IMG/VR virus record: IMGVR_UViG_3300028610_001068
Coordinates: 1-26,274 of that record
DNA from: a virus
Strand: one strand, 5' to 3'
DNA length: 26,274 nt
In this document: positions 7,226-26,274 of the stretch, piece after piece
How positions within the stretch are numbered: position 1 is the stretch's first letter
Layout: every line of letters starts with the position of its first letter
The notes under the pieces: generated by a model
What the model was told of the DNA's origin: nothing
The model's database searches: none
What the model saw: the letters and a program-made list of their open reading frames with translations, nothing else
Program-made: the position numbers and the translations under genes

Positions 7226-8287
7226 TTAGCTACCCACTTCAATTCCAAACTTCGCGGCATTGACACCACCGGATGTCCACAATAAACCCGTGGCCGGATC
7301 AGTGGCAAGAGTTCCAAGGATGAGCCCATACTCATCCCACATGAGCTTCTCAGTCAACACATCCACTTCAGAAGCATCACTAAGGCATTTAACATCTAGT
7401 GTCAATGCTTGCGGGTTAGTGACCCGTGTGACTGTCGCCACCTGCACCGCTTGGATCGTAGCCCCGCTGTATTCACTCGGAAGCGATTCGTAGGTGAACA
7501 AATCCCTATCAGTCGGTGTGTCCGAATGCAAGTAATCAGCATTAGTCCAGACAGCGGCATCAGCAGGACGTACCGGACCATCGCTAATCGCATCATAATG
7601 TTGAATCGCGCCTGCCACACCCCAACCAACCGAATGATCGCCAACAGGCCACAACACTGGAATCTTCACGTCGCCAAGGAAACCATTATTCTCGGACCCC
7701 TGGTCGCTGCAAATGTAAACATCGTCAATGATACAGCCTGAATTACTCCACCCAAGCATGGCTAAACTGGTATAACCGTCCCAACTTTGATACGCCATGT
7801 CCACGCCCACGCCCTCAGCAACAGTTTCACCATTGATACGTAACTCGTAGGCGCCATTCGCGCCGCCCCTGGCGAGAACATAAAACTCGATGTAATACCA
7901 GCGACCAGCTTGGAGGCCGGCATCATAGAGAGGCATTCCGTTGAGCAATCTCAACCCGCCGGCAGCAGTAAGCTGAAGCTCGAATTGGGTATCGTTGATC
8001 GTGTAGTATCGTACCGGAGTGCAAGTACTAGGTGTCCCCAAAAGCTTCAAAGCGAAGCCCATGTACACATGGTTCGATCCAGAATACAACGCTGGAAAAC
8101 GAAGATACTGCGTCGTATGACCAAAGTATATCCCAGTGCCTCGGGCTCTACCTTGAGTAGCATAGCCATCGGGAGGAGAGGAAGTAAGCGATCTCCCCTG
8201 ATAGCGCTGACCAAGCGCCCACGAAGCTTCATTGGTCGAAGCTGCTGGATCAATCCAATCGAAACCATCTAACCACAACTGTGACAT
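7226..8287 (-). CDS. Lectin-like (LamG/ConA-type) tail fibre protein, paralogue C
   Basis: This 353-residue protein is the third of three tandem paralogues. Its order is an N-terminal WLDGFDWID motif, a jelly-roll region (about 70-190) with MGFALKLLG, W-Y-Y-I-E-F and ELRINGE strands, then IDDVYICSDQG, FLGDVKIPVLWP, and a C-terminal beta domain ending in AKFGIEVGS. The strand pattern with a Trp-Tyr pair before ExxV and a later IDD resembles LamG/concanavalin-like folds, which bind sugars. A tail fibre or receptor-binding role is inferred from the fold and position. The gene starts one base after the previous stop (TAACATG), with GGGGTGG upstream. Confidence 0.6.
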   Translation of the reverse strand: MSQLWLDGFDWIDPAASTNEASWALGQRYQGRSLTSSPPDGYATQGRARGTGIYFGHTTQYLRFPALYSGSNHVYMGFALKLLGTPSTCTPVRYYTINDTQFELQLTAAGGLRLLNGMPLYDAGLQAGRWYYIEFYVLARGGANGAYELRINGETVAEGVGVDMAYQSWDGYTSLAMLGWSNSGCIIDDVYICSDQGSENNGFLGDVKIPVLWPVGDHSVGWGVAGAIQHYDAISDGPVRPADAAVWTNADYLHSDTPTDRDLFTYESLPSEYSGATIQAVQVATVTRVTNPQALTLDVKCLSDASEVDVLTEKLMWDEYGLILGTLATDPATGLLWTSGGVNAAKFGIEVGS

Positions 8288-8288
8288 G

Positions 8289-9350
8289 TTAGTCCACCCC
8301 TACTTTAATTCCGAATTTCGCAGCGTTAACACCAGCCGGTGTCCACAGCACGTCAGTATCCGGATCAGTTTCGAGCACCCCAGTTAGGATTCCATATTCA
8401 TCCCACATCAACTTCTCCGACGCCACATCAGCCTCAGTCGCATTACTATCACACAAAACAATCAATGTTTTCGCTTGAGGATTAGTGACTCGTGTCACAG
8501 TCGTTACTTGGACTCCTCGAATCGTCGCTCCACTATACTCACTGTCGAGAGCGGAATAAGTGAACAAGTCTTTCGTGTCCAACACACTCGCGTAAAGGTA
8601 GTCGGTATCATCCCATACCTCACCACCGACGGCCACAACCGGAGTTTCATCCACCGCCTGATAATTCGTCCCCACCCCAGAAATCGACCAGTTCGAGGTG
8701 TCATCCCCATCAGGTATAATGGCCGGGATTTTCACATCACCTAAAAAGGTGTTGTTTATCGAACCCTGATCATCGCAAATGTAGATGTCGTCAACGATCG
8801 TGCCAAAATCACTCCAGCCAAACTGAAACAGATTGGTCCAACCATCCCAACTCCTCTGCGCCATATCAACACCCGTGCCCTCAGCAATAGTCTCACCATT
8901 GACACGAAATTCGTAGGCGCCTCCGGAAGACTTGGCAAGAACATGAAACTCAATATAATACCAGCGGTCGACTTTGAGACCGAAGTAAGTAAAAGGCATT
9001 CCATACGTCAGACGAACCAAGCCATCGTCAGACAACTCTATACCGAATTGAATATCGTTGTACGTATAGACTTGAATCGGGAAGCCATTCGCAGGCGGAC
9101 CAAGAAGCTTAATAGCAAAGCCCATGTACATGTGCTCGGAACCCGGGTTCAATGCAGGATACCTCAACCACTGACCCCGATGACCCCAACTCAGCGCACT
9201 CCCGCCATTACGCCCAGCCGTCATAGTAGCGTCCGGAGAACTGTAGATAAGATAATCCTCCAAATACCGCTTTCTGAGTGCCTGTCGCAACTGCAAAGTG
9301 GTGGACGTGATATCAATCCAGTCAAAACCTTCAGCCCATAGGAGTGCCAT
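8289..9350 (-). CDS. Lectin-like (LamG/ConA-type) tail fibre protein, paralogue B
   Basis: This 353-residue protein is the closest relative of the 7226-8287 product. It has the same motif order: EGFDWID at the N-terminus, MGFAIKLLG, RWYYIEFHV, FRVNGETIAEG, IDDIYICDDQG, FLGDVKIPAI, and an ending of AKFGIKVGVD. Equal length and colinear motifs show they arose by duplication, while frequent substitutions show they have diverged. The start follows TAACATG, with GGAGG about 10 bases upstream and overlapping the end of the preceding gene. Its likely role is surface or sugar binding at the tail tip; the ligand cannot be read from sequence. Confidence 0.6.
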   Translation of the reverse strand: MALLWAEGFDWIDITSTTLQLRQALRKRYLEDYLIYSSPDATMTAGRNGGSALSWGHRGQWLRYPALNPGSEHMYMGFAIKLLGPPANGFPIQVYTYNDIQFGIELSDDGLVRLTYGMPFTYFGLKVDRWYYIEFHVLAKSSGGAYEFRVNGETIAEGTGVDMAQRSWDGWTNLFQFGWSDFGTIVDDIYICDDQGSINNTFLGDVKIPAIIPDGDDTSNWSISGVGTNYQAVDETPVVAVGGEVWDDTDYLYASVLDTKDLFTYSALDSEYSGATIRGVQVTTVTRVTNPQAKTLIVLCDSNATEADVASEKLMWDEYGILTGVLETDPDTDVLWTPAGVNAAKFGIKVGVD

Positions 9351-9351
9351 G

Positions 9352-10398
9352 TTAGTCTACCTCCACACCAAATTGTACTGCATTGAGATTCGCTTCTATC
9401 CACGCCGCGCTGGTGTCAGGATCAGTCTCCATTATATCTTGAATCTGAGTGTAAGTAGCGCTTGCGATATTTTGAGCAGGGCGGGGGTACTCCGTCCCGC
9501 CAGACTTGACTTGTTGGATCAAATCGAGAGCCACATCGTCCTGTCGCGGTGAGGTGCAAAGTTGAACCCCATGCACGTCAGTCAAACCAGCCGGAACATC
9601 CTCGTAAGTAAACAAGGTCTTCTGACCAGTCGTGCCAGAAAGATAGGTGGTGTCATCATCAACAGGTTCATTCTCGTCAACCAAAGCGTAGCTATCACTC
9701 CCTCCAGAAAGCGTCCATTGCTCATCGGCTGTATCGCCATCCGGTTTCAAATGGAAAACACGAAGCGGTCCAAGGAAATCAGCACCAGCGCCCTGCGCAA
9801 CGTACATGTCATCAATCCGACTATCACCCGAACCCCAAGAGTACCAACGAGCGCCAATGCAACCATTCGGTGTATGAATTTCGGTATCAAGACCTGTCTC
9901 AGAAAGAACCGTCTCACCATTGATGCGAATTTCAACAGTTCCAACCGAATTGTCGAAATAGACCTTGACCTCAATATAGAACGACTGTTGCCTGTAACTT
10001 CGGATCGTTGCAGGTATGACCGCAATGTGCCAACCCTCAGTCCGGTAGTAAATAGTCCCATCACTGTGCAACCACAATGCGCCCTGCTGTTCGCGTTCGC
10101 TATTGATAAAAGTGAAAACACAAATGTGATCGGTAGCCACAGAAGTAAAACGAACCCGAAATCCCGTCACCCACGTTCCGGATATGTCGCTCGGTACAAG
10201 GGCTGGAGTTTCAATCCACTGGCCGGCTTCACGAAACGACAATGCCTGCCCCTCCCCGAAAGCATCGTCAGTGATGATGGCATTAGGACTCGTGGTAACA
10301 TTGACATAAGCGTATCGCTTAGCGAGAATATTCGCTAACTGCGCATCAGTGATACCAGTGCCAATCCAATCGAATCCTTCAATCCAACGCAATGCCAT
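9352..10398 (-). CDS. Lectin-like (LamG/ConA-type) tail fibre protein, paralogue A
   Basis: This 348-residue protein is the most divergent of the triplet. It keeps EGFDWIG at the N-terminus, a central jelly-roll with FYIEVKVYF and EIRINGETV, then IDDMYVAQG, FLGPLRVFHLKPDGD, and the end VQFGVEVD. I start it at the ATG at 10398 because this gives TAATG with the preceding gene and aligns with the starts of the paralogues. The ATG at 10413 would add five residues inside the upstream gene. The middle loops differ strongly from the two downstream copies, as expected if they face different receptors; that point is inference. Confidence 0.6.
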   Translation of the reverse strand: MALRWIEGFDWIGTGITDAQLANILAKRYAYVNVTTSPNAIITDDAFGEGQALSFREAGQWIETPALVPSDISGTWVTGFRVRFTSVATDHICVFTFINSEREQQGALWLHSDGTIYYRTEGWHIAVIPATIRSYRQQSFYIEVKVYFDNSVGTVEIRINGETVLSETGLDTEIHTPNGCIGARWYSWGSGDSRIDDMYVAQGAGADFLGPLRVFHLKPDGDTADEQWTLSGGSDSYALVDENEPVDDDTTYLSGTTGQKTLFTYEDVPAGLTDVHGVQLCTSPRQDDVALDLIQQVKSGGTEYPRPAQNIASATYTQIQDIMETDPDTSAAWIEANLNAVQFGVEVD

Positions 10399-11312
10399 TA
10401 GCCCAAACTCCAATGCTTGAGGTACGTGTGGTGTTCGTACACGTTACTGGATCGATCATGACCGAATCCAATTCTATTCCCACCGTTACTGAGGTAGGCG
10501 TCCCGCGCTTGTGACAAAAGTTCAAGCCAATTCGTACCATCGACGCTGAGATAAAACTTGTGATTGACGCTATCGTCCGCAAACCGAAGCCAAACGACAT
10601 CACTAAGTAATCCTATCGCCGTCCAATCAACGGGATGAGGAGCATCGTACGAACTATAGCTGTCCATGTGAGCAACTTGGATTCCTGGCTGCGCATCATA
10701 GCGATGATGTACGACAAGAGTTACCAGCTTACCATCACCGCTGTTCTCGATAGTGATCCCGCATCGCGGATATGTTGTCCCCGTCTGACGCCACAGCACT
10801 GAAAATGCGGCTGTCAACACATAAGGTGTTGATGGAGGTGTTATGTACTTCCCGCGAAGCTGGCTTCCAGAGCCTCCGTCAGCCTTCAACAGAATACTAC
10901 CATCCGCCACGTCCACCGTGCTCGCTTCTCCACCTTGATTGTACCAAGTGAAATCAGCGGCTGCGGCAAGGTCACCATTCGCTTTGAAAATACGGAAAGG
11001 CGGAGTGTTGTCAGGAATATAAAGCGCACAGAAATCAGACAGGTGTTTTTGCAACGAACCTTCAGTAACAATCACTCGCACAATCTGCGCGTCGGCGTGC
11101 TCAGCCGGCGTCGTGTTTTCGATGCCGCGCTCGACAGTCAACACGTGAGTGGAGCGAGCAGTCACAAGCAGCAACTCCGATTCAATGAGAATCCGAAAAT
11201 CGCCCTCAGCCGGAAACTCGGAACCATCGTCCAAAGTAAGACTGGTCGCTCCTGATGAAATCAAACCGTCAAGCGTCGATTTCGTATTATTGACATAGCG
11301 TTCTTGTCGCAT
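10398..11312 (-). CDS. Tail fibre-like protein, 300-residue family, paralogue C
   Basis: This 304-residue protein is the last of three tandem relatives. The N-terminal 100 residues share a pattern with both sisters: a start of M-x3-R-x-V-N-N, TLDG, TSLTL, FPAEGDFRI, a V-T-x-R-G-x-E turn, and a Gly-x-L-Q-K-H-L helix. The C-terminal 180 residues are beta-rich with WLRFADDSVN and SVDGTNWLELL, the kind of strand-turn-strand seen in DUF1349/ConA-like modules. A fibre role, with an N-terminal attachment and a C-terminal binding domain, is inferred. GAGGAG lies before the ATG and overlaps the end of the upstream gene. Confidence 0.55.
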   Translation of the reverse strand: MRQERYVNNTKSTLDGLISSGATSLTLDDGSEFPAEGDFRILIESELLLVTARSTHVLTVERGIENTTPAEHADAQIVRVIVTEGSLQKHLSDFCALYIPDNTPPFRIFKANGDLAAAADFTWYNQGGEASTVDVADGSILLKADGGSGSQLRGKYITPPSTPYVLTAAFSVLWRQTGTTYPRCGITIENSGDGKLVTLVVHHRYDAQPGIQVAHMDSYSSYDAPHPVDWTAIGLLSDVVWLRFADDSVNHKFYLSVDGTNWLELLSQARDAYLSNGGNRIGFGHDRSSNVYEHHTYLKHWSLG

Positions 11313-11318
11313 GATTTC

Positions 11319-12209
11319 TTACTCCTCGATCCATGTTGAGTACGAGGCATAAATCCCCATACTTTCTGAATCATTACCAGCCAGACAAAGTTCGTCAGGG
11401 CCTTCGTCTGACATCCAACCAGCCCACGCTTCTGAATGAATCTCAATCCAATTGAAACCGTCCGGACTAACGTAGGCTTTCAAATTGGTGCCGTCATTTG
11501 CGACTTTCAACCAAATAAAGTTTCCAGTGCCACCGAAAAGCTCACCAACATCACCAAGGAAAGTCGTTGGATCAGTCCACTTTTGAACCCTGACGCCCGT
11601 ATGGCGAAAAGCTAACACAAATAGCTTACCAGTGTCACTCTCACGGTAGGCGATGCCAAAGCATCCTGCATCCGCCGATACAACACCGCGTACTGAAACA
11701 ATGAGCGCTGAGGGGGAAGCCGGAACTACCGGCGCAGCTTTCTTCCAAACACGAAGACTGGGAGAACCCGATGGCGGCACATACAAAGAGACACCGCCAT
11801 TACCGTAGTCTACAAGAGTCGAACCACCTTGATTGATTGCGGCAAAACTGGAGGCTGTTAAAATACCACCAGCCTTGTCAACCAGTGTATTCGCTAACGG
11901 CGCATCACTCTCACCGAAAAGCGGAACACTATTCTGGAGATGACGCAACAAGCTTCCTGCCGTCAGAATGTGAGCCACAATTGCGCCATCACTATGAGGT
12001 GTGGCATCAGACCCTTCGTAACCACGGACACAAGTGAAAGTGTCACCAGTGACCGATGTGACTTGAATGATCTCCCTATCCACAATAATAACAAAATCAC
12101 CGACACTCGGAAAAGCCGAAGCATCCGAAACGGGAATCGAAGTCACGGAGCCATTTATAGCGCCGGACAAAGTGGTGATTGCGTTATTGACAATCTGTTC
12201 TCGCGCCAT
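11319..12209 (-). CDS. Tail fibre-like protein, 300-residue family, paralogue B
   Basis: This 296-residue protein has the same two-part build as its neighbours: an N-terminal part with TLSGAINGSVTSIPV, FPSVGDFVIIVD, CVRGYEGS and GSLLRHLQN, then a beta-rich C-terminal part with FIWLKVANDG and SPDGFNWIEI. The N-terminal half is better conserved across the triplet than the C-terminal half, which fits a common anchor with variable binding heads. The ribosome site and stop of the preceding copy form GAGGAGTAAGAAATCATG, and the same 18 bases recur before the next gene. Confidence 0.55.
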   Translation of the reverse strand: MAREQIVNNAITTLSGAINGSVTSIPVSDASAFPSVGDFVIIVDREIIQVTSVTGDTFTCVRGYEGSDATPHSDGAIVAHILTAGSLLRHLQNSVPLFGESDAPLANTLVDKAGGILTASSFAAINQGGSTLVDYGNGGVSLYVPPSGSPSLRVWKKAAPVVPASPSALIVSVRGVVSADAGCFGIAYRESDTGKLFVLAFRHTGVRVQKWTDPTTFLGDVGELFGGTGNFIWLKVANDGTNLKAYVSPDGFNWIEIHSEAWAGWMSDEGPDELCLAGNDSESMGIYASYSTWIEE

Positions 12210-12215
12210 GATTTC

Positions 12216-13118
12216 TTACTCCTCAATCCAGGTTGAAAAGACTACTTGACCGTCGGCGTCCTCAGCCAAAATGTTGCCATGCAAACCGATTTCATCCGGA
12301 GTGGCCAACCAATTTGTACGAGACTGAGTGAGTAGAGTAAGCCAATTCTGCCCATCAACACTGTATCGGAAAATGTGGTTAGTAGTGTTGTCTTCAATCT
12401 GCAACCAGAGAGGAGAAGAGATGCCAATCTCTATCGCCGCCACATCACTATCCCAAACTGTCGGGCTAGTCATCTTGGAAACACAAATCTGACCAGACAC
12501 CGCGAAGCTCAAGAGGAGCAGTTTAACCCCACTTGCATCACGAAGACCGATTCCAAAAGTCGAACCCTGATCCAAACCCACGTCACGAGGCATAATCCAC
12601 CGTGGAATCTGAGCCGTCAACGTGTAAGCTGGCGTTGGAGCCGCACGCTTATAAAAGCGAACTGAAGTGGCCGACGGGCCGGGCACAAACAGAAGCAAGC
12701 CACCGCTATTGTAATCCGTCAGCGTTGAAGTGCCCTGATTCACAGCAGTGAAATTGCTGGCAGTCAAAACAGCATCGGCGTCATCGACAAGGTAATTTGA
12801 TTTGGGTAAAGCTGAGTCATTGAATAGCGAAACACCATCACGAACGTATCGTTGGAGACCTCCAACAGTGATAATCTGAATAACAGAGACCCCATCTCCG
12901 TGAGTCACCCCTGTGGTATTCTCCCGCGCCCGCACAACAGTAAACGTATTGCTCGACACACCAGTGACAAGCATGATTTCATTATCGACCACAATCCGGA
13001 AGTCACCTTCCGCCGGAAAGTCTGCCGCGCTAATCACATCAAGACTGGTCACCGCAGCGTCAATCTGCCCGTCAAGGGTTGACGCTGCGTCATTAGCGAA
13101 TCGTTCTCGGCGTGACAT
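12216..13118 (-). CDS. Tail fibre-like protein, 300-residue family, paralogue A
   Basis: This 300-residue protein is the first of the triplet in transcription order. Motifs in order are TLDGQIDAAVTSLDV, FPAEGDFRIVVDNEI, VVRARENTTG, GLQRYVRDGV, a central KRAAP-containing strand region, and PLWLQIEDN with SVDGQNWLTLL near the end. It ends in WIEE like paralogue B. The ATG follows GAGG, and an intrinsic terminator lies just upstream. Transcription must therefore read through that terminator or start close by; I see no convincing promoter in the 92-base gap. Function is inferred as for its sisters. Confidence 0.55.
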   Translation of the reverse strand: MSRRERFANDAASTLDGQIDAAVTSLDVISAADFPAEGDFRIVVDNEIMLVTGVSSNTFTVVRARENTTGVTHGDGVSVIQIITVGGLQRYVRDGVSLFNDSALPKSNYLVDDADAVLTASNFTAVNQGTSTLTDYNSGGLLLFVPGPSATSVRFYKRAAPTPAYTLTAQIPRWIMPRDVGLDQGSTFGIGLRDASGVKLLLLSFAVSGQICVSKMTSPTVWDSDVAAIEIGISSPLWLQIEDNTTNHIFRYSVDGQNWLTLLTQSRTNWLATPDEIGLHGNILAEDADGQVVFSTWIEE

Positions 13119-13833: not shown

Positions 13834-16800
13834 TTACAAAGTTGTAGTACCGCGCCGCAGTTCGCGTCTTAACTGAACGGCGATGGACCTAGCCGTTTGA
13901 CGGCCCGTGTCGCCGCCCTTAACAGTCACATTGATGTCGCCAATGTTAGTGACGCTCCCACCTACACTACGGTAAGTGGGCTGAACATTAGCGTTCATCG
14001 CTACAAGCTGCGAAGCGAATCTACTCGTCGCTTGCGCGTTCATCACATATTCCCCGCGCGCTAACCACGCAGGCACCACATCCGTGCCCACCGGGCCACC
14101 GGCCGCTAAGTAACGACCAACCCGGCCTCCATGAGCCGAAAGCTCAGGCGCTGCCGGTGTCTGCACTGACATCGACGCCGCCGCCAAATCCCACATCGCT
14201 GAAGCCGCTGCTGAAGTCTGCGTCGTCAGGCTGGACATACTAATCTGCGAAACCGCCGCAACACTAGTTCGAGCGATACCCGCTTGCTCTTGGACTTGCT
14301 GGGCCGCACCCCTGGCCTGTTGAAGAGCCCCCTGAGCATCTTGAGCCTTCTGAAGAGCTTCTTGCAACAGCGTCCGCAATTCACTCGCCTCAGTAGCACG
14401 CTGCTCCAGACCAACCCCACCCTCCGGCCCTCGGAGTCCTTTAAGCAACTTCGCCTTAGCATTAGCCTGTGAAGCCGCTGCGGCAGCATCCTGTATGTAC
14501 GCTTCCAACACCGCCTGAACATCGGCAGGTGGTTTGATCTGTTCAATGTAATCGTCATAAGCCGCCTTCAAAGCAGCAAAATCACTCACATCCAAAGCAG
14601 TCGCAGGCACAAGAGAATAACGATCCACAGCCGCTAAGAAATTCTCAACAACATCTTTCAACACCGGCTCAGACCACGCTGTCATACCAGTGATATCGTA
14701 ATTCTCTGGACTTAACCCTATCTCCACCCACTTGTCAAGATCGGCTTGGGCATTTTTCTGATGCGCAGTGATTTGCTGATTAGCAACTGATACCGCATCC
14801 GACATTTCAGCATATTGCCGAAGAATAGCATTTGTCTTACCAAGCTCACTGGAGAGAATCGACAGTGTCTCCTCGGCGCCCGCGCCTTCAACCATTTCTT
14901 GAAGTCGGGGTGGGAGTTGAGGAATAACCGTGTCCAACATGACACGAACGGCTCCAACACCTTGCTCAATCTGCGAACGGAAGTCAGCAAAAGTCGCAGG
15001 CAACGCAGTAAGCCTCTGCACCTGCATCTCGGTAACGCCACCCTCAAGAGCAGTCTGTACACGCTGCTGAAGCTTATCAAAAGCCATCATGTCCGCAACG
15101 TCAATCTGCTTACCACCGAGCCAGAGCTTGCGGAACTCATCGACGCTAGCAGAAAGTCGCGCTTGCTGTTCCTGCAATGCCTTAGGGTCCTTTGCCCCGG
15201 TCTTATCGAAAGCTTGCAAATCCTCAAGAATGCCCTTCATCAAGACTTTCATCTTGCTCAAGCGTCCAGCCTCCTTCGCCGCCTCGTCAGCAAGTCGCTG
15301 GGCCTCTTTAGCTTGAATCTTCTGCAACTCTTTCTCGGCTCCAATCTTCTGCCGCATGATGAATAGAATTCTTCGCTGAGCATCACTCTGTAGCAACGTA
15401 TTCTTGGTACCGCCGGCAATGTTTTCGGCTTCTTGAGCCGCTGCATCAGCACGTTGGAAGAGCGCCGATGCCGATGCTATCGCTTCCGGTGTTTGCGCTG
15501 AGCGCATGGCTTCGCTAGCTTCACGCGCCAAGAAGGCCGCTCGCCGCATATAGTTCTCGGCCTTTTGATAGGCACCCTCATTCTTGTTCGCGTATTTGAA
15601 CATCGTGTCCGAATAATCAGCCTCAGCATCGGCCTGACGCTCACGCGAAGCTTGTATTGCATCCGCAGCCGCCTTCGCAGCCGTCCGATAAGCAGCAACC
15701 ACACGCTCTTGAGACTTGACCATTGAAGCCAGAGTCTCTCGGGTGTCATTAACAAGCTCTTTGTTTTTGGCTTTGAGATCATCAATTGCTTTGAAGTATG
15801 TCCGGCGAATCGCCGCGGCCCCTTGCTCCCAAATACGGTCTTGCTCGCGTCGGGTGTCGTCCGCTTCCTTACGAGCTTCTTGATTGACCTTTTGAATCTC
15901 CTGAATCTGCTCTTCAGCAGCTCGGCGTCGAGCTTCAGCCGCATCACGAATCGAAGCAACCTCGGACGCCGACCGATAGATACCGACCGCAATGATTGCC
16001 GAAACACCCATCAACGCCAGACCGAGTGGTCCAAGTGCAGCGTTGGCAAGCAACGCTTTCACCGCAAGAACTGCCAACGCCGCACCCAGAAAGGTCACTA
16101 CACCTGTAACTGCTTGCAATGCGGCAACAAGCTGATTCGCCCCGCCAACCCATTGCAGAATCGAACCGAGTACCTGAGTCAATGTCATCCCCAACTCTTG
16201 TGTCAAAGTGACCTTGAGTTTGTTGATTTCATGAGTCAGTTTTTCGGCGGGCATTTCTTTGAACTTCTCCCACAGTTCATCAAGGTGCTCAGCAGACGAC
16301 TGCGCCATCGCCTTCACTGCGTCCTCATACGCCTGAGCATCGTCACGTGTCAAAGCCAAACTCGCCGTCAAAGCTCGGATTCGACGAATGGACTTCGCGT
16401 ATTCGGAGGCCATGTTCTTCGATTCATTGCTGATCGTCTTCAACGCACCGACAAAACCTTCGGCTTGAACAATCTGCTCAGCATTCGCATAACCCAATTC
16501 CCGTAGAACCTTCTTCATGTCCTCGGAAGGCTTCAAGAATGCCAACATTGCTTGACGCAGACCAGTAGACGCCTTGTGTGCCTCGATACCGCCGATGGTT
16601 AATGACACATAGGAAGCAGTCACCTCTTCAAGCGTAATACCAAGCTGCGCAGCGATTGGAATAATAGAACCGAGCGTATCCGCCAATTCCTTACCACGGA
16701 CACGACCCAACTGAATAGTACGGAAAAACTGTGCCGCAACCTGATCGGCATTTTGCGATGACATGCCGTAAGCGTTCAACACCCCTGTCATCAATAGCAC

Positions 16801-17580
16801 TGAGTCTTTCAGATCAATGACACCAACTTTCGCCAGCTTCATCGACGCTTCCATGATATTCGTGCGTTCAGAGACTTCGACAAATTGATTCGAGATCGTC
16901 TGATAGATGCCTTCAACAGCTTGCCCGAGGTCCACATTGAAGCGGCGAGCCATATTAGCCGCCTCATCCGTGAGTGTTTGAAACGACGATGTAGTCTCCC
17001 GCATCGAGCCTTCAAGCGGCGCCATCGTAATCAGCAGAACTTCAGAGATCGCACGCTGGAACTTGATCGACTCGCCAACCGACTCACGCAGAAGATTGCG
17101 GACCTGTGACAAGGCGCGAACAATTGCCTGTGTAAAAACAATCCGTCCCATCATCTGGAACGACATCATAAGCCGTTTGGACGAATTACCCGTCTCATTA
17201 AGAGCCCGGGTGCCCTTTTGTCCGGCTTGTGCCATCTGCTGTCCCGCTGAAGCCGATGATCGACCCAAGGCAGCCATACCTTGATTGACTTTGTCGATCT
17301 GCTCTTGCGTCCCAGGCGGCAGCCCGAGATTTGAACCTGTCGTCTGAGCAGCAGGCGTCGGAGTGGCAGGAGTTGTAAGCTTACTCAACCGAGCCGACGC
17401 TGTAGCCAATTGCTTCATAGTCGACAAGGCCGCTTGAGCCTGTGAATTCCACGTATTCAATTGACCAGCGTGCGTTTGCAGCGCAGTAGCCGACGTTTGC
17501 AACTGACTGTCAAGTCGTTGCAACGAATCAAGTGCTTGCGCTACATCGAAGCCAAGTTTACTGACAATTTCGTCGGCCAT
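13834..17580 (-). CDS. Tail tape measure protein (TP901 type)
   Basis: The 1248-residue product sets tail length and is ejected with the DNA. Residues about 170-385 form a TP901-type core, with Q-x3-E-x2-L, AANMARRFN, LLMTGVLNAYGMS, GRVRGKELADTLG and GIEAHKASTGL. Residues about 475-545 are very hydrophobic (likely two membrane-spanning segments). A long Ala/Glu/Arg coiled-coil region follows. The C-terminus has the familiar GTDVVPAWLARGEYVMNA. At about 0.15 nm per residue, the rule known for tape measures, the tail would be near 185 nm. The start has only a weak ribosome site and lies five bases after the preceding stop, so coupling is likely. Confidence 0.9.
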   Translation of the reverse strand: MADEIVSKLGFDVAQALDSLQRLDSQLQTSATALQTHAGQLNTWNSQAQAALSTMKQLATASARLSKLTTPATPTPAAQTTGSNLGLPPGTQEQIDKVNQGMAALGRSSASAGQQMAQAGQKGTRALNETGNSSKRLMMSFQMMGRIVFTQAIVRALSQVRNLLRESVGESIKFQRAISEVLLITMAPLEGSMRETTSSFQTLTDEAANMARRFNVDLGQAVEGIYQTISNQFVEVSERTNIMEASMKLAKVGVIDLKDSVLLMTGVLNAYGMSSQNADQVAAQFFRTIQLGRVRGKELADTLGSIIPIAAQLGITLEEVTASYVSLTIGGIEAHKASTGLRQAMLAFLKPSEDMKKVLRELGYANAEQIVQAEGFVGALKTISNESKNMASEYAKSIRRIRALTASLALTRDDAQAYEDAVKAMAQSSAEHLDELWEKFKEMPAEKLTHEINKLKVTLTQELGMTLTQVLGSILQWVGGANQLVAALQAVTGVVTFLGAALAVLAVKALLANAALGPLGLALMGVSAIIAVGIYRSASEVASIRDAAEARRRAAEEQIQEIQKVNQEARKEADDTRREQDRIWEQGAAAIRRTYFKAIDDLKAKNKELVNDTRETLASMVKSQERVVAAYRTAAKAAADAIQASRERQADAEADYSDTMFKYANKNEGAYQKAENYMRRAAFLAREASEAMRSAQTPEAIASASALFQRADAAAQEAENIAGGTKNTLLQSDAQRRILFIMRQKIGAEKELQKIQAKEAQRLADEAAKEAGRLSKMKVLMKGILEDLQAFDKTGAKDPKALQEQQARLSASVDEFRKLWLGGKQIDVADMMAFDKLQQRVQTALEGGVTEMQVQRLTALPATFADFRSQIEQGVGAVRVMLDTVIPQLPPRLQEMVEGAGAEETLSILSSELGKTNAILRQYAEMSDAVSVANQQITAHQKNAQADLDKWVEIGLSPENYDITGMTAWSEPVLKDVVENFLAAVDRYSLVPATALDVSDFAALKAAYDDYIEQIKPPADVQAVLEAYIQDAAAAASQANAKAKLLKGLRGPEGGVGLEQRATEASELRTLLQEALQKAQDAQGALQQARGAAQQVQEQAGIARTSVAAVSQISMSSLTTQTSAAASAMWDLAAASMSVQTPAAPELSAHGGRVGRYLAAGGPVGTDVVPAWLARGEYVMNAQATSRFASQLVAMNANVQPTYRSVGGSVTNIGDINVTVKGGDTGRQTARSIAVQLRRELRRGTTTL

Positions 17581-17585
17581 CTTAT

Positions 17586-18089
17586 CTATCGCACACGGAC
17601 ACTTTTGATATGCGGGGCTACCGCGGGTAAACTAACGTGACTGGTATTGTGAAGAAAAGCCGCCGCACCTTTGACTTGAAAGTCGTAGGGACCTGGCCTC
17701 TTCAACTTGGAAAACAATGTCGGATCAGGATCAATGTTCGCGTTATGGAACTCATTCCAGACTAACCACGGCAAATCAGTCCCATACTTGAACACATACA
17801 AACCACTCTCGGCGTCGGTCACCATTTCCCCGGTGCTCGCCGCCATTCCCATCGCAGTCCGATCCATCGGAGCAGGGATTCCGCCAATCGGTACCGAAGC
17901 GTCGATCTTACTTGCGATCTTCACAAAAGTGGCTCGGGATGCACCACTCCAAATCGGAACTTCTGCAACAACAGCTTCTAGCCAAGCCATCAATCCCTGT
18001 GCTAGCACCTCCCGCATCGCGGCATCCAATGCCTTCTTGTACCCCGCCAAATTCAAACGCGGGGCCCGATATTTGTGGGTGAACTTCAT
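17586..18089 (-). CDS. Minor tail protein (HK97 gp10-like or related)
   Basis: This 167-residue protein starts at the ATG at 18089, two bases after the stop of the -1 frame chaperone extension (TGACCATG), with AAGAG upstream. A GTG at 18182 would add 31 residues, but these overlap that extension and look non-native. The product has an N-terminal helix, then VPIWSGASRATF, IPAPMDRTAMG, FKYGTDLPWLVWNEF and a Pro-rich end. The W-S-G-x-x-R and Y-G-x3-P-W features resemble gp10-like tail-completion proteins of siphophages. Its place between chaperone and tape measure fits a minor tail or joining role, but the family assignment is tentative. Confidence 0.5.
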   Translation of the reverse strand: MKFTHKYRAPRLNLAGYKKALDAAMREVLAQGLMAWLEAVVAEVPIWSGASRATFVKIASKIDASVPIGGIPAPMDRTAMGMAASTGEMVTDAESGLYVFKYGTDLPWLVWNEFHNANIDPDPTLFSKLKRPGPYDFQVKGAAAFLHNTSHVSLPAVAPHIKSVRVR

Positions 18090-18091
18090 GG

Positions 18092-18382
18092 TCAGGCTCT
18101 TCGACTTCGTGGACCTCGGCGCGCTGGGGACGGCAGTGAGCCCGAACCAGGTGTGCGAGCCCCGGCAAGCTTCGCCTGCCACTGCTCTTCGTCATAGCTG
18201 CACGTCTGATCGAACGCTATCACCAAAGCCTGGGCTTCCAAGCCACACTCATCCCACATTGCTTCAACGCCAGGTGGACGAATCCCTAGCCTTTGGCAGG
18301 CGCGCCAGATGGCGTACTCACCGGTTCGGTAGCTTGGCCAGAGGACGCTTGCACTGCCTGAACCTGACCAAGAAGAAAAACT
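18092..18382 (-). CDS. -1 frame extension of tail assembly chaperone (gpT-like part)
   Basis: This 96-codon stretch has no start of its own and lies in the -1 frame relative to the 18286-18813 gene, overlapping its last third. It looks coding, not random: motifs include GEYAIWRACQRLGIRPPG, MWDECGLEAQALVIAFDQ and DEEQWQAKLAGAR, typical of C-terminal parts of tail chaperone fusions. It ends at TGA, two bases before the next ATG. In lambda and many other siphophages, gpG and gpG-T chaperones are made from one start by -1 slippage and load the tape measure. A shift at the T-run at 18376-18380 would give a fusion of about 240 residues. The shift site itself is inferred. Confidence 0.75.
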   Translation of the reverse strand, partial: SFSSWSGSGSASVLWPSYRTGEYAIWRACQRLGIRPPGVEAMWDECGLEAQALVIAFDQTCSYDEEQWQAKLAGARTPGSGSLPSPARRGPRSRRA

Positions 18383-18813
18383 TCACGGGCCTTCCTTAGC
18401 TTGGCTTCATCGAGTGCATTGGCCTCCATGACCGTCGCCAGAACTCGACTACATTCGATCTCACTCAGACCACCATTGCGAAGATCATCTTCCCAATTCC
18501 TCCACGAACGTGGATTGTCCTCTTCGATCGTGTCCCATTCAATGTCGCTCGGCTCCAGCGAATTGACCACAATGTAACCAAGGCGCTTCTTCGCCCACTG
18601 ATCGATCATCTCTTTGTAAGACACGTCCTCAGGCATAGGGACTGCGCCATCCCGAGTCAATTTGGTTGGCATCTTTGGCTGCGGGCAAAGATCATTGAAC
18701 TTGTCCATGTCCTTCAGGCCACGCGCACGAAAAACGATCTCATCCTCACCGCGAGGTAAAACCAAGAGCACTTCGTTACACAGTTTTTTGGGGTCAACAC
18801 CACCAATCTTCAT
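18286..18813 (-). CDS. Tail assembly chaperone (gpG-like)
   Basis: This 175-residue, mostly alpha-helical acidic protein sits between the major tail proteins and the tape measure, where siphophages encode the gpG-type chaperone. I start it at MKIGGVDPKKL (18813), which has GAGGGAGAACG upstream; an in-frame ATG at 18843 lies in the terminator hairpin. Recognisable stretches are VLLVLPRGEDEIVF, MPTKLTRDG, WAKKRLGYIVV and EVFLLGQVQAV. The last 30 residues are low complexity (Ser, Pro, Ala), as if the ordered part ends where the frame switch occurs. The unshifted and -1 shifted products would work together in tail assembly. Identity rests mainly on position and on the extension. Confidence 0.7.
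   Translation of the reverse strand: MKIGGVDPKKLCNEVLLVLPRGEDEIVFRARGLKDMDKFNDLCPQPKMPTKLTRDGAVPMPEDVSYKEMIDQWAKKRLGYIVVNSLEPSDIEWDTIEEDNPRSWRNWEDDLRNGGLSEIECSRVLATVMEANALDEAKLRKAREVFLLGQVQAVQASSGQATEPVSTPSGAPAKG
18376..18381 (-). promoter_or_regulatory. Candidate -1 ribosomal slippage site
   Basis: Reading on the minus strand, codons GTT TTT CTT contain a run of five T. A tRNA-Phe on TTT can re-pair on TTT one base back. The -1 frame is closed by TGA just upstream (18383-18385) and open from here to 18092, so any shift must occur between here and the in-frame stop at 18286. It is not a perfect X-XXY-YYZ heptamer, so another site in that interval is possible. Confidence 0.35.
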
Positions 18814-18884: not shown

Positions 18885-19904
18885 TTACACACGCGAGACG
18901 TCGGGCTCGATGACATTACATTTGCCAGTGAGCGAGATCGTTGCGTCTTTAAGGTTGACTTCCTTGGTATCCGCCCGGAAGTCCGGGAAGAGCGTGATTT
19001 CCTTCTGAGCACCACCGCAAGGTGGGGTGTGCTCGATTTCGATGTCGATGGCATACGGTTCGCACTGGTCAGTTGACGAACTGACCCATCCAGACGCGCC
19101 ACCAATACCTTTCAACGCATCAATCGGGGCAATCGTTTCCGAAGTTCCCGTCGTGATGTGTTCATAGGTCGCTTCCAGCCTCACATCAAGAGGCACTTGA
19201 TCGCCTTCACGCACGGTGTCAAGATCGCCCCGGTCCAACATGTACTCGTAGGTCCGATGCTCGGTGTAGGTAACGTTGCCGTCACCGACCTTGATCTCGA
19301 TCTGCTGCGGTAAAAAGGTGACAACAGCATTATCTGCTGGGATACCGTCAACATCACTCAAAGCTGGAGTAAACGTCAACTGGCACGTCACTGTTCCAAC
19401 AGCGGCGACCAAAGCGGCTACTGCTGTCTGAGCACCCCCCGTCAACAAAGCGTCATCGGCAACCAGCAAGGTACTGTCGCCTTCAGGATTGACAAACTCT
19501 ATGAGGTAGAGAGTACCAGGCGTACCGTAGACATTAACCGTGGTGACGCTGGTAAGACCCTCCAACGCCGCCTTGAGAAGAGCAAGCGTGATATCGTAAG
19601 CAAGCGCTGCTGTCTCTTGACTCTTATAAGACAGAGTAAAGGTCCCGCCGGTAGCGTCGATCGTCACACTTTGTACTTCATTGGCGTCCTGCGCGGTCAC
19701 TGTGCGAGTCAAAGTGGCGCCAACTACCGTGAAACGGGCGCCCACAGGCACAAGGTACGTGTTGTTAGTCAGATCGGCAACAGTGTCGATCTCCATTACG
19801 GTATCAAGTGCGGCAAGAGCACTATCGGGATCATTCACCGCAGCCGACCCACCGAAACCATCCTTGAACCGAATAATACAGTCACGAAGTTCGATCCTGG
19901 CCAT
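18885..19904 (-). CDS. Major tail protein with inserted domain
   Basis: This 339-residue protein is a near copy of the next gene upstream, except for an insertion of about 95 residues at residues 75-172. The shared parts are the MARIELRDCI start, LVPVGARFT, and the long C-terminal part from VVTFLPQQIEIKVGDGN onward, ending KCNVIEPDV. The insert has VTIDATGGTFTLSY, ALAYDITLALLKAALEGL and TLYLIEFVNPEGD, a repeatable module I recall from phage tail and bacterial surface proteins. Major tail (tube) identity follows from position before the chaperone and tape measure, the duplicate, and the strong ribosome site AGGAGG. The insert may decorate the outside of the tube. Confidence 0.7.
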   Translation of the reverse strand: MARIELRDCIIRFKDGFGGSAAVNDPDSALAALDTVMEIDTVADLTNNTYLVPVGARFTVVGATLTRTVTAQDANEVQSVTIDATGGTFTLSYKSQETAALAYDITLALLKAALEGLTSVTTVNVYGTPGTLYLIEFVNPEGDSTLLVADDALLTGGAQTAVAALVAAVGTVTCQLTFTPALSDVDGIPADNAVVTFLPQQIEIKVGDGNVTYTEHRTYEYMLDRGDLDTVREGDQVPLDVRLEATYEHITTGTSETIAPIDALKGIGGASGWVSSSTDQCEPYAIDIEIEHTPPCGGAQKEITLFPDFRADTKEVNLKDATISLTGKCNVIEPDVSRV

Positions 19905-25188: not shown

Positions 25189-26274
25189 TCAATACCTCGT
25201 CAACCAGTCCATGCTTTGTCGGTCTGGATGTGATTCATACCAGCCATTGTCCCAGAGATCGTCAAGCATCTCGAAGTATTCTTGGTACATCCACTTCACC
25301 CGATCCATGCTATAGTTCGCTACGGCTCGTTGGTGAATGTACCATGGATCGAGTTCATGGACGTGTTGCGCTGCCCAGGCAAACTGATCTAACGTGTGGC
25401 AACGGAATCCTGTTCGGCCATGCTCAACAGTCTCAGTAAACGCGCCGAAGTCAGTCGAGATAACAGGCGTACCCGCCATTTGTGCTTCGACAGCAACTCC
25501 GCCGAATGGTTCAACGTAGTACGTCGGAGTGAACGCGGCTTTCGCCTTTCCAAGCAATTGAGCTTTCTCGTCGCCAGTGACACACCCTACGTACTCCAGA
25601 TGATCGCCTTCAAACACCTCACCACCGACGCAGTGGATTTTGTTTCCTTCGACTTTCGTGACTCCCTGCCCGGCAAGGACCAACTTGGCGCCAATCCGTT
25701 TGCAAGTCTCAACGGCGGCGTTGATGCCTTTCCGTCGCATGATCCGACCCATGAACAAGTAGTAGTCTTCCTTTTGCGGTTGGAATGGGTAGTCGGCCGG
25801 GTTGAAGTAATTCGGCACAACCGTATCGTAAAACTTACCGTCCGGGTCGCGTCCACCTTGAAACGCCCACATCATGTGCATGTGAGAGTAGCTCTCGAAG
25901 CACCGATACTTGCTGAACGTTCCAGTGTACCCGATCCCGTACTCGACCGGTAACACATCCTCTTCACCAACTGCTTCGATAATCGGGGCACTCAATGAGC
26001 CGCAAATCAAGGCGAGAATATCTCGCCGCTCTTTCCGAGCATTGATCGCTGCGGAGGCTCGGCCATTTGTCAGTGGCCAGTAGGGTTCCTTTCCAGTCCA
26101 CCCCAAATTGTAAAGAGCATTCTTGTCCCACTCGCCGAAATACTTGATCTGCTCATCTCGGCTGATAGTTTGAATATGCTCGTCACATTCGACTTCACTT
26201 CCTTCCGCGCCATAGTGAAACACCGTATGGCCCAGAGACTTCATCATCTGGACAAAGTGCAACACCTTCATCGT
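25189..26274 (-). CDS. GT-B (GT4-like) glycosyltransferase, 5' end outside window
   Basis: At least 361 residues are visible. The first ATG in the window is at 26271, but the frame stays open to the edge and TMKVLHF reads like an internal part of a Rossmann strand, so the true start is probably outside. The C-terminal half has the sugar-nucleotide half of a GT-B fold: YYLFMGRIMRRKGI, AKLVLAGQG, and YYVEPFGGVAVEAQMAGTPVI, with the E-x7-E motif typical of GT4 retaining enzymes. It would transfer a sugar from a nucleotide sugar to an unknown acceptor. The place in the head operon suggests virion glycosylation, or else modification of host surface sugars; this is inference. Confidence 0.8.
   Translation of the reverse strand, partial: TMKVLHFVQMMKSLGHTVFHYGAEGSEVECDEHIQTISRDEQIKYFGEWDKNALYNLGWTGKEPYWPLTNGRASAAINARKERRDILALICGSLSAPIIEAVGEEDVLPVEYGIGYTGTFSKYRCFESYSHMHMMWAFQGGRDPDGKFYDTVVPNYFNPADYPFQPQKEDYYLFMGRIMRRKGINAAVETCKRIGAKLVLAGQGVTKVEGNKIHCVGGEVFEGDHLEYVGCVTGDEKAQLLGKAKAAFTPTYYVEPFGGVAVEAQMAGTPVISTDFGAFTETVEHGRTGFRCHTLDQFAWAAQHVHELDPWYIHQRAVANYSMDRVKWMYQEYFEMLDDLWDNGWYESHPDRQSMDWLTRY

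Follow-up and report, generated by a model that had tools for sequence, protein, structure and literature searches.

The closest described counterpart of the locus analysed here is the G/GT tail assembly chaperone pair of phage lambda. Flanked by the genes for the major tail protein and the tape measure, this pair comprises two products made from one start, and the longer of them owes its C-terminal extension to a -1 shift late in the first frame. The lambda slip motif is a heptamer of the G_GGA_AAG type, and a chaperone gene usually abuts the tape measure gene. Shorter sites have been studied in E. coli, where all Z_ZZN tetramers were tested and, in the presence of a pseudoknot stimulator, ranked A_AAG >> U_UUC > U_UUU (Sharma et al. 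2014, PMC4066793). T_TTT and T_TTC have been described as weak -1 tetramers in that organism; with a stimulator both act above background and both occur in IS elements, while tetramers lacking a stimulator reach about 0.15%, barely above background (PMC4066793). Some tailed phages are known to frameshift without evident stimulators (reviewed in PMC5009743).

We analysed a 26,274-nucleotide stretch of viral DNA (IMG/VR record IMGVR_UViG_3300028610_001068, hereafter the window), in which a region on the minus strand appears, with high confidence, to encode a tail assembly chaperone pair of the G/GT type through a -1 frameshift. The features concerned are as follows:

18885..19904, minus strand: major tail protein, the upstream neighbour (phrog_10909, E 2.9e-07)
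18286..18813, minus strand: zero-frame tail assembly chaperone, 175 aa, gpG-like with a predicted XkdN/YqbN-like fold (open reading frame and protein model)
18376..18379, minus strand: candidate slip tetramer T_TTT, made up of the Phe codon 18378-18376 and the preceding T at 18379 (invariant T_TTY in relatives, third-base constraint, known shifty class)
18092..18376, minus strand: -1 frame extension with a T-like domain, 94 aa, from TCT at 18376 to TGA 18094-18092 (relatives; linker and two helices)
17586..18089, minus strand: small conserved gene, 167 aa, between chaperone and tape measure (no family match above the cut-off)
13834..17580, minus strand: tail tape measure protein (PhageMin_Tail, E 5.7e-23; phrog_991)

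The zero frame runs from the ATG at 18813 to a TAG at 18288-18286. The -1 frame is closed by a TGA at 18385-18383, opens with AGT at 18382, continues to 18095 and ends at its TGA, so that it overlaps the end of the zero frame; its extent from 18382 to 18092 and this overlap confirm what the first-pass annotation had described. As had also been noted there, the -1 frame stops just short of the next gene, whose ATG at 18089 follows after two bases, and has no start of its own, the earliest possible start codon lying about 120 nt beyond the slip site, within the conserved domain. The predicted fusion, whose residues 1-146 are common to the zero-frame chaperone, has a length of 240 aa, in agreement with the roughly 240 residues proposed earlier, and a long-conserved -1 frameshift that produces it is very probable. 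The C-terminal domain had been described as acidic and Trp-rich; the peptide quoted in support, GEYAIWRACQRLGIRPPG, is indeed present in the -1 frame, but the extreme C-terminus of the extension (RRGPRSRRA) is basic.

The gene order, in which the chaperone follows the major tail protein gene and is separated from the tape measure gene by one small gene, supports the tail chaperone interpretation that had been suggested. Counting only contigs long enough, and loci that are not all distinct, the major tail gene lies upstream in 147/147, the conserved small gene follows the chaperone in 146/146 and, beyond it, the tape measure gene is present in 136/136. This extra conserved gene, placed after the extension and ahead of the tape measure gene, distinguishes the locus from lambda. 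Elsewhere in the window, three tandem genes at 7226-10413 (minus strand), each of exactly 353 aa and all assigned to phrog_2448 (unknown function), look like tandem paralogs, and three consecutive genes of about 300 aa at 10398-13118 (minus strand) share the tail-fibre profiles phrog_8469 and phrog_19068 and are possible paralogs. A glycosyltransferase gene at 25189-26271 (minus strand; phrog_3408, E 4e-65) adjoins the head-tail adaptor in the structural module.

Relatives of the chaperone were collected from IMG/VR. A search with the first domain returned 24 loci. An alignment of that domain then gave 124 matches and the -1 domain by itself 276, with 80 retained in each case, and alignments of greater divergence contributed additional loci. 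This revealed that the second domain overlaps the end of the first and lies in the -1 frame in 163 of 163 loci of a first set and subsequently at 179 of 179 distinct junctions with both halves readable, and that no IMG/VR relative with both halves readable carries the two domains in one frame. As the domain occupies the -1 frame in all 179 distinct relatives, the arrangement is not due to chance, and the check on -1 frame conservation that had been proposed thus has a positive outcome. Three loci lack the second domain, and each of these stops at a contig or locus end.

The junctions also delimit where a slip could take place. The possible stretch is bounded upstream by -1 frame stops that can begin just 7 nt ahead of the Phe codon and downstream by zero-frame stops that can come just 18 nt beyond it, and the only Z_ZZN motif common to all junctions inside it is T_TTY, a tetramer in the zero frame with the codons NNT TTY. 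It was found at 103 of 103 and then 179 of 179 distinct junctions, counts of related sequences for which a parsimony count on a tree is offered as a correction. On a tree built without the codon preceding Phe, that codon changed 29 times and kept T at its third base throughout; at the first 103 junctions it specifies V, S, L, T, A, N, F or D with an invariable final T. Among 145 codon columns it alone combines several amino acids with complete third-base identity: the next best column with at least four amino acids, a nearly invariant Trp, reaches 0.97, and the median is 0.51. The Phe codon itself is TTT at 174 and TTC at 5 of the 179 junctions, compared with TTT for 40% of Phe elsewhere in these genes. 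The five-T run that had been put forward as the slip candidate is real (18380-18376), but the relatives require T_TTY only, the run being 5 T long at 70 of 103 junctions, 4 at 28, 7 at 4 and 3 at one. The absence of a classical heptamer likewise held: no canonical X_XXZ_ZZN heptamer lies at the window junction, and among the 103 distinct relatives only 6 have one there. The motif differs from the G_GGA_AAG-type heptamer, while U_UUU and U_UUC are exactly the tetramers of the IS1/IS3 sites (Sharma 2014, PMC4066793). It had been suggested that the mechanism might be unusual; since Z_ZZN tetramers have been tested in E. coli, the site belongs to a known shifty class and is uncommon rather than new.

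These observations bear on several alternatives to a frameshifted fusion. The -1 frame could be a separate gene with its own internal or non-standard start, expressed by coupling or re-initiation with no fusion being made, and in some relatives it is indeed open for hundreds of bases upstream. This is very unlikely, as 100 of the 103 distinct junctions are free of ATG, GTG and TTG in the -1 frame across an interval reaching from 30 nt upstream to 80 nt downstream of the slip site, and the T_TTY constraint would be left unexplained. A mixed mRNA population generated by RNA polymerase slippage would draw on the T run present at the site, yet just 4 or 5 T are present at 98 of 103 junctions and 3 at one, which is shorter than known slippage runs, which usually comprise eight or more; we give this explanation slightly less weight still. 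A sequencing error or a decayed, frame-broken gene has nothing in its favour beyond the split itself and is contradicted by the same split in 179 distinct relatives, none in one frame, which makes it exceedingly improbable. On the sequence, the basis of the predicted -1 frameshift is the overlapping, conserved -1 frame domain together with the invariant T_TTY at the junction.

How the ribosome would slip is a narrower question, which concerns the surroundings of the tetramer. The window itself carries an SD-like sequence, AAGGAAGG (-7.0 kcal/mol), but across the family SD-like stimulators are not enriched (mean -3.2 versus -3.9 kcal/mol for synonymous shuffles), and for a downstream stem-loop RNAalifold returned no consensus structure, with a shuffle z near 0, in folds that exclude pseudoknots. 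The IS1/IS3 sites differ in this respect, as their rates were measured with the IS3 pseudoknot and no conserved stimulator was found in the chaperone family; they also serve transposases rather than a tail chaperone. The codon following Phe varies (CTA, CTT, CTG, TTA, TTG, GTA, CAA, ATA and CCA), and where it encodes leucine it is CTA in 60% of cases versus 5.5% of leucine codons elsewhere. CTA is thus the one remaining stimulator candidate and could slow the ribosome. The excess would fit slippage of the P-site tRNA-Phe on its own during a delay at a slow A-site codon, as opposed to slippage of an A-site tRNA on the tetramer. However, dual coding may explain it, because a base of the next codon doubles as the first position of a -1 frame codon for which Thr, Ser, Cys and Ala are the sole residues. 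Next codons other than CTA are also found, the window having CTT (18375-18373, minus strand). We regard the P-site route as a possibility worth entertaining, though the less probable of the two; both routes yield the same protein here.

To assess the identity of the domains, they were compared with sequence libraries and structures. Pfam, PHROGs and NCBIfam gave no convincing match for either domain, including the -1 frame peptide that the first-pass annotation had advised comparing with tail chaperone families, and the family differs from lambda G/GT in having no sequence match to any library family. Isolate phages gave no match to the -1 domain and one insignificant match to the first (E 0.5), and scans of genome contigs, covering prophages or hosts among sampled prokaryote genomes, gave none. 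Reading by eye, unaligned, the chaperone genes of Dinoroseobacter phage R5C and Streptomyces phage Hiyaa, two isolates whose tape measure or capsid proteins are related, revealed no obvious resemblance. An AlphaFold2 model of the first domain (mean pLDDT 78) found its best PDB match in YqbN (3klu; Z 5.9 over 99 residues, rmsd 3.6), which we take to be a member of the XkdN tail chaperone group, with the runner-up at Z 3.0. Identity over the aligned part is 15% and, as a Z below 8 can reflect a common arrangement, this middling match is support rather than proof. The second domain is modelled as a linker followed by two helices, and this T-like domain has no confident fold match among structures. 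Taken together, the -1 domain in all 179 distinct relatives, the third-base constraint, the synteny and the best fold match to YqbN support the gpG-T-like fusion that had been proposed. Counting against the G/GT reading are the efficiency of about 0.15% for bare tetramers in E. coli, the lack of a family-wide stimulator and the T-like domain without a confident fold match.

By the G/GT reading, most ribosomes would complete the 175-aa zero-frame protein, while on a minority tRNA-Phe on UUU 18378-18376 would slip back one base, re-pair with the overlapping UUU and then read UCU, completing the 240-aa fusion. The expected partner of the first domain is the tape measure protein and that of the -1 domain the major tail protein: by analogy with lambda gpG/gpGT, the N-terminal part shared by both products would coat the tape measure protein, and the less abundant fusion would bring in the major tail protein via its helical C-terminal domain (PMC5009743).

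Judged by its sequence, the putative chaperone represents a large family that is new, lacks annotation and is of the same kind as lambda G/GT, its slip motif being minimal. This kind is already known, and what is new is the family and its four-base motif. Both halves can now be named for a family that the annotation libraries used here miss and that spans from more than 100 (first half) to more than 270 (second half) uncultivated viral contigs, and frameshift finders that seek heptamers would miss most of its members. The 179 distinct junctions form a natural alignment by which the slip site can be pinned down to four bases, and the family offers a way of testing whether such a tetramer depends on a stimulator in its natural context. 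We tentatively suggest, while considering it rather doubtful, that in a large group of uncultivated phages the chaperone ratio for tail assembly has, over a long evolutionary time, been determined by a bare U_UUY site, perhaps together with a slow codon after it, and without an RNA structure or SD stimulator. If true, a four-base site and codon choice would be enough for programmed -1 frameshifting.
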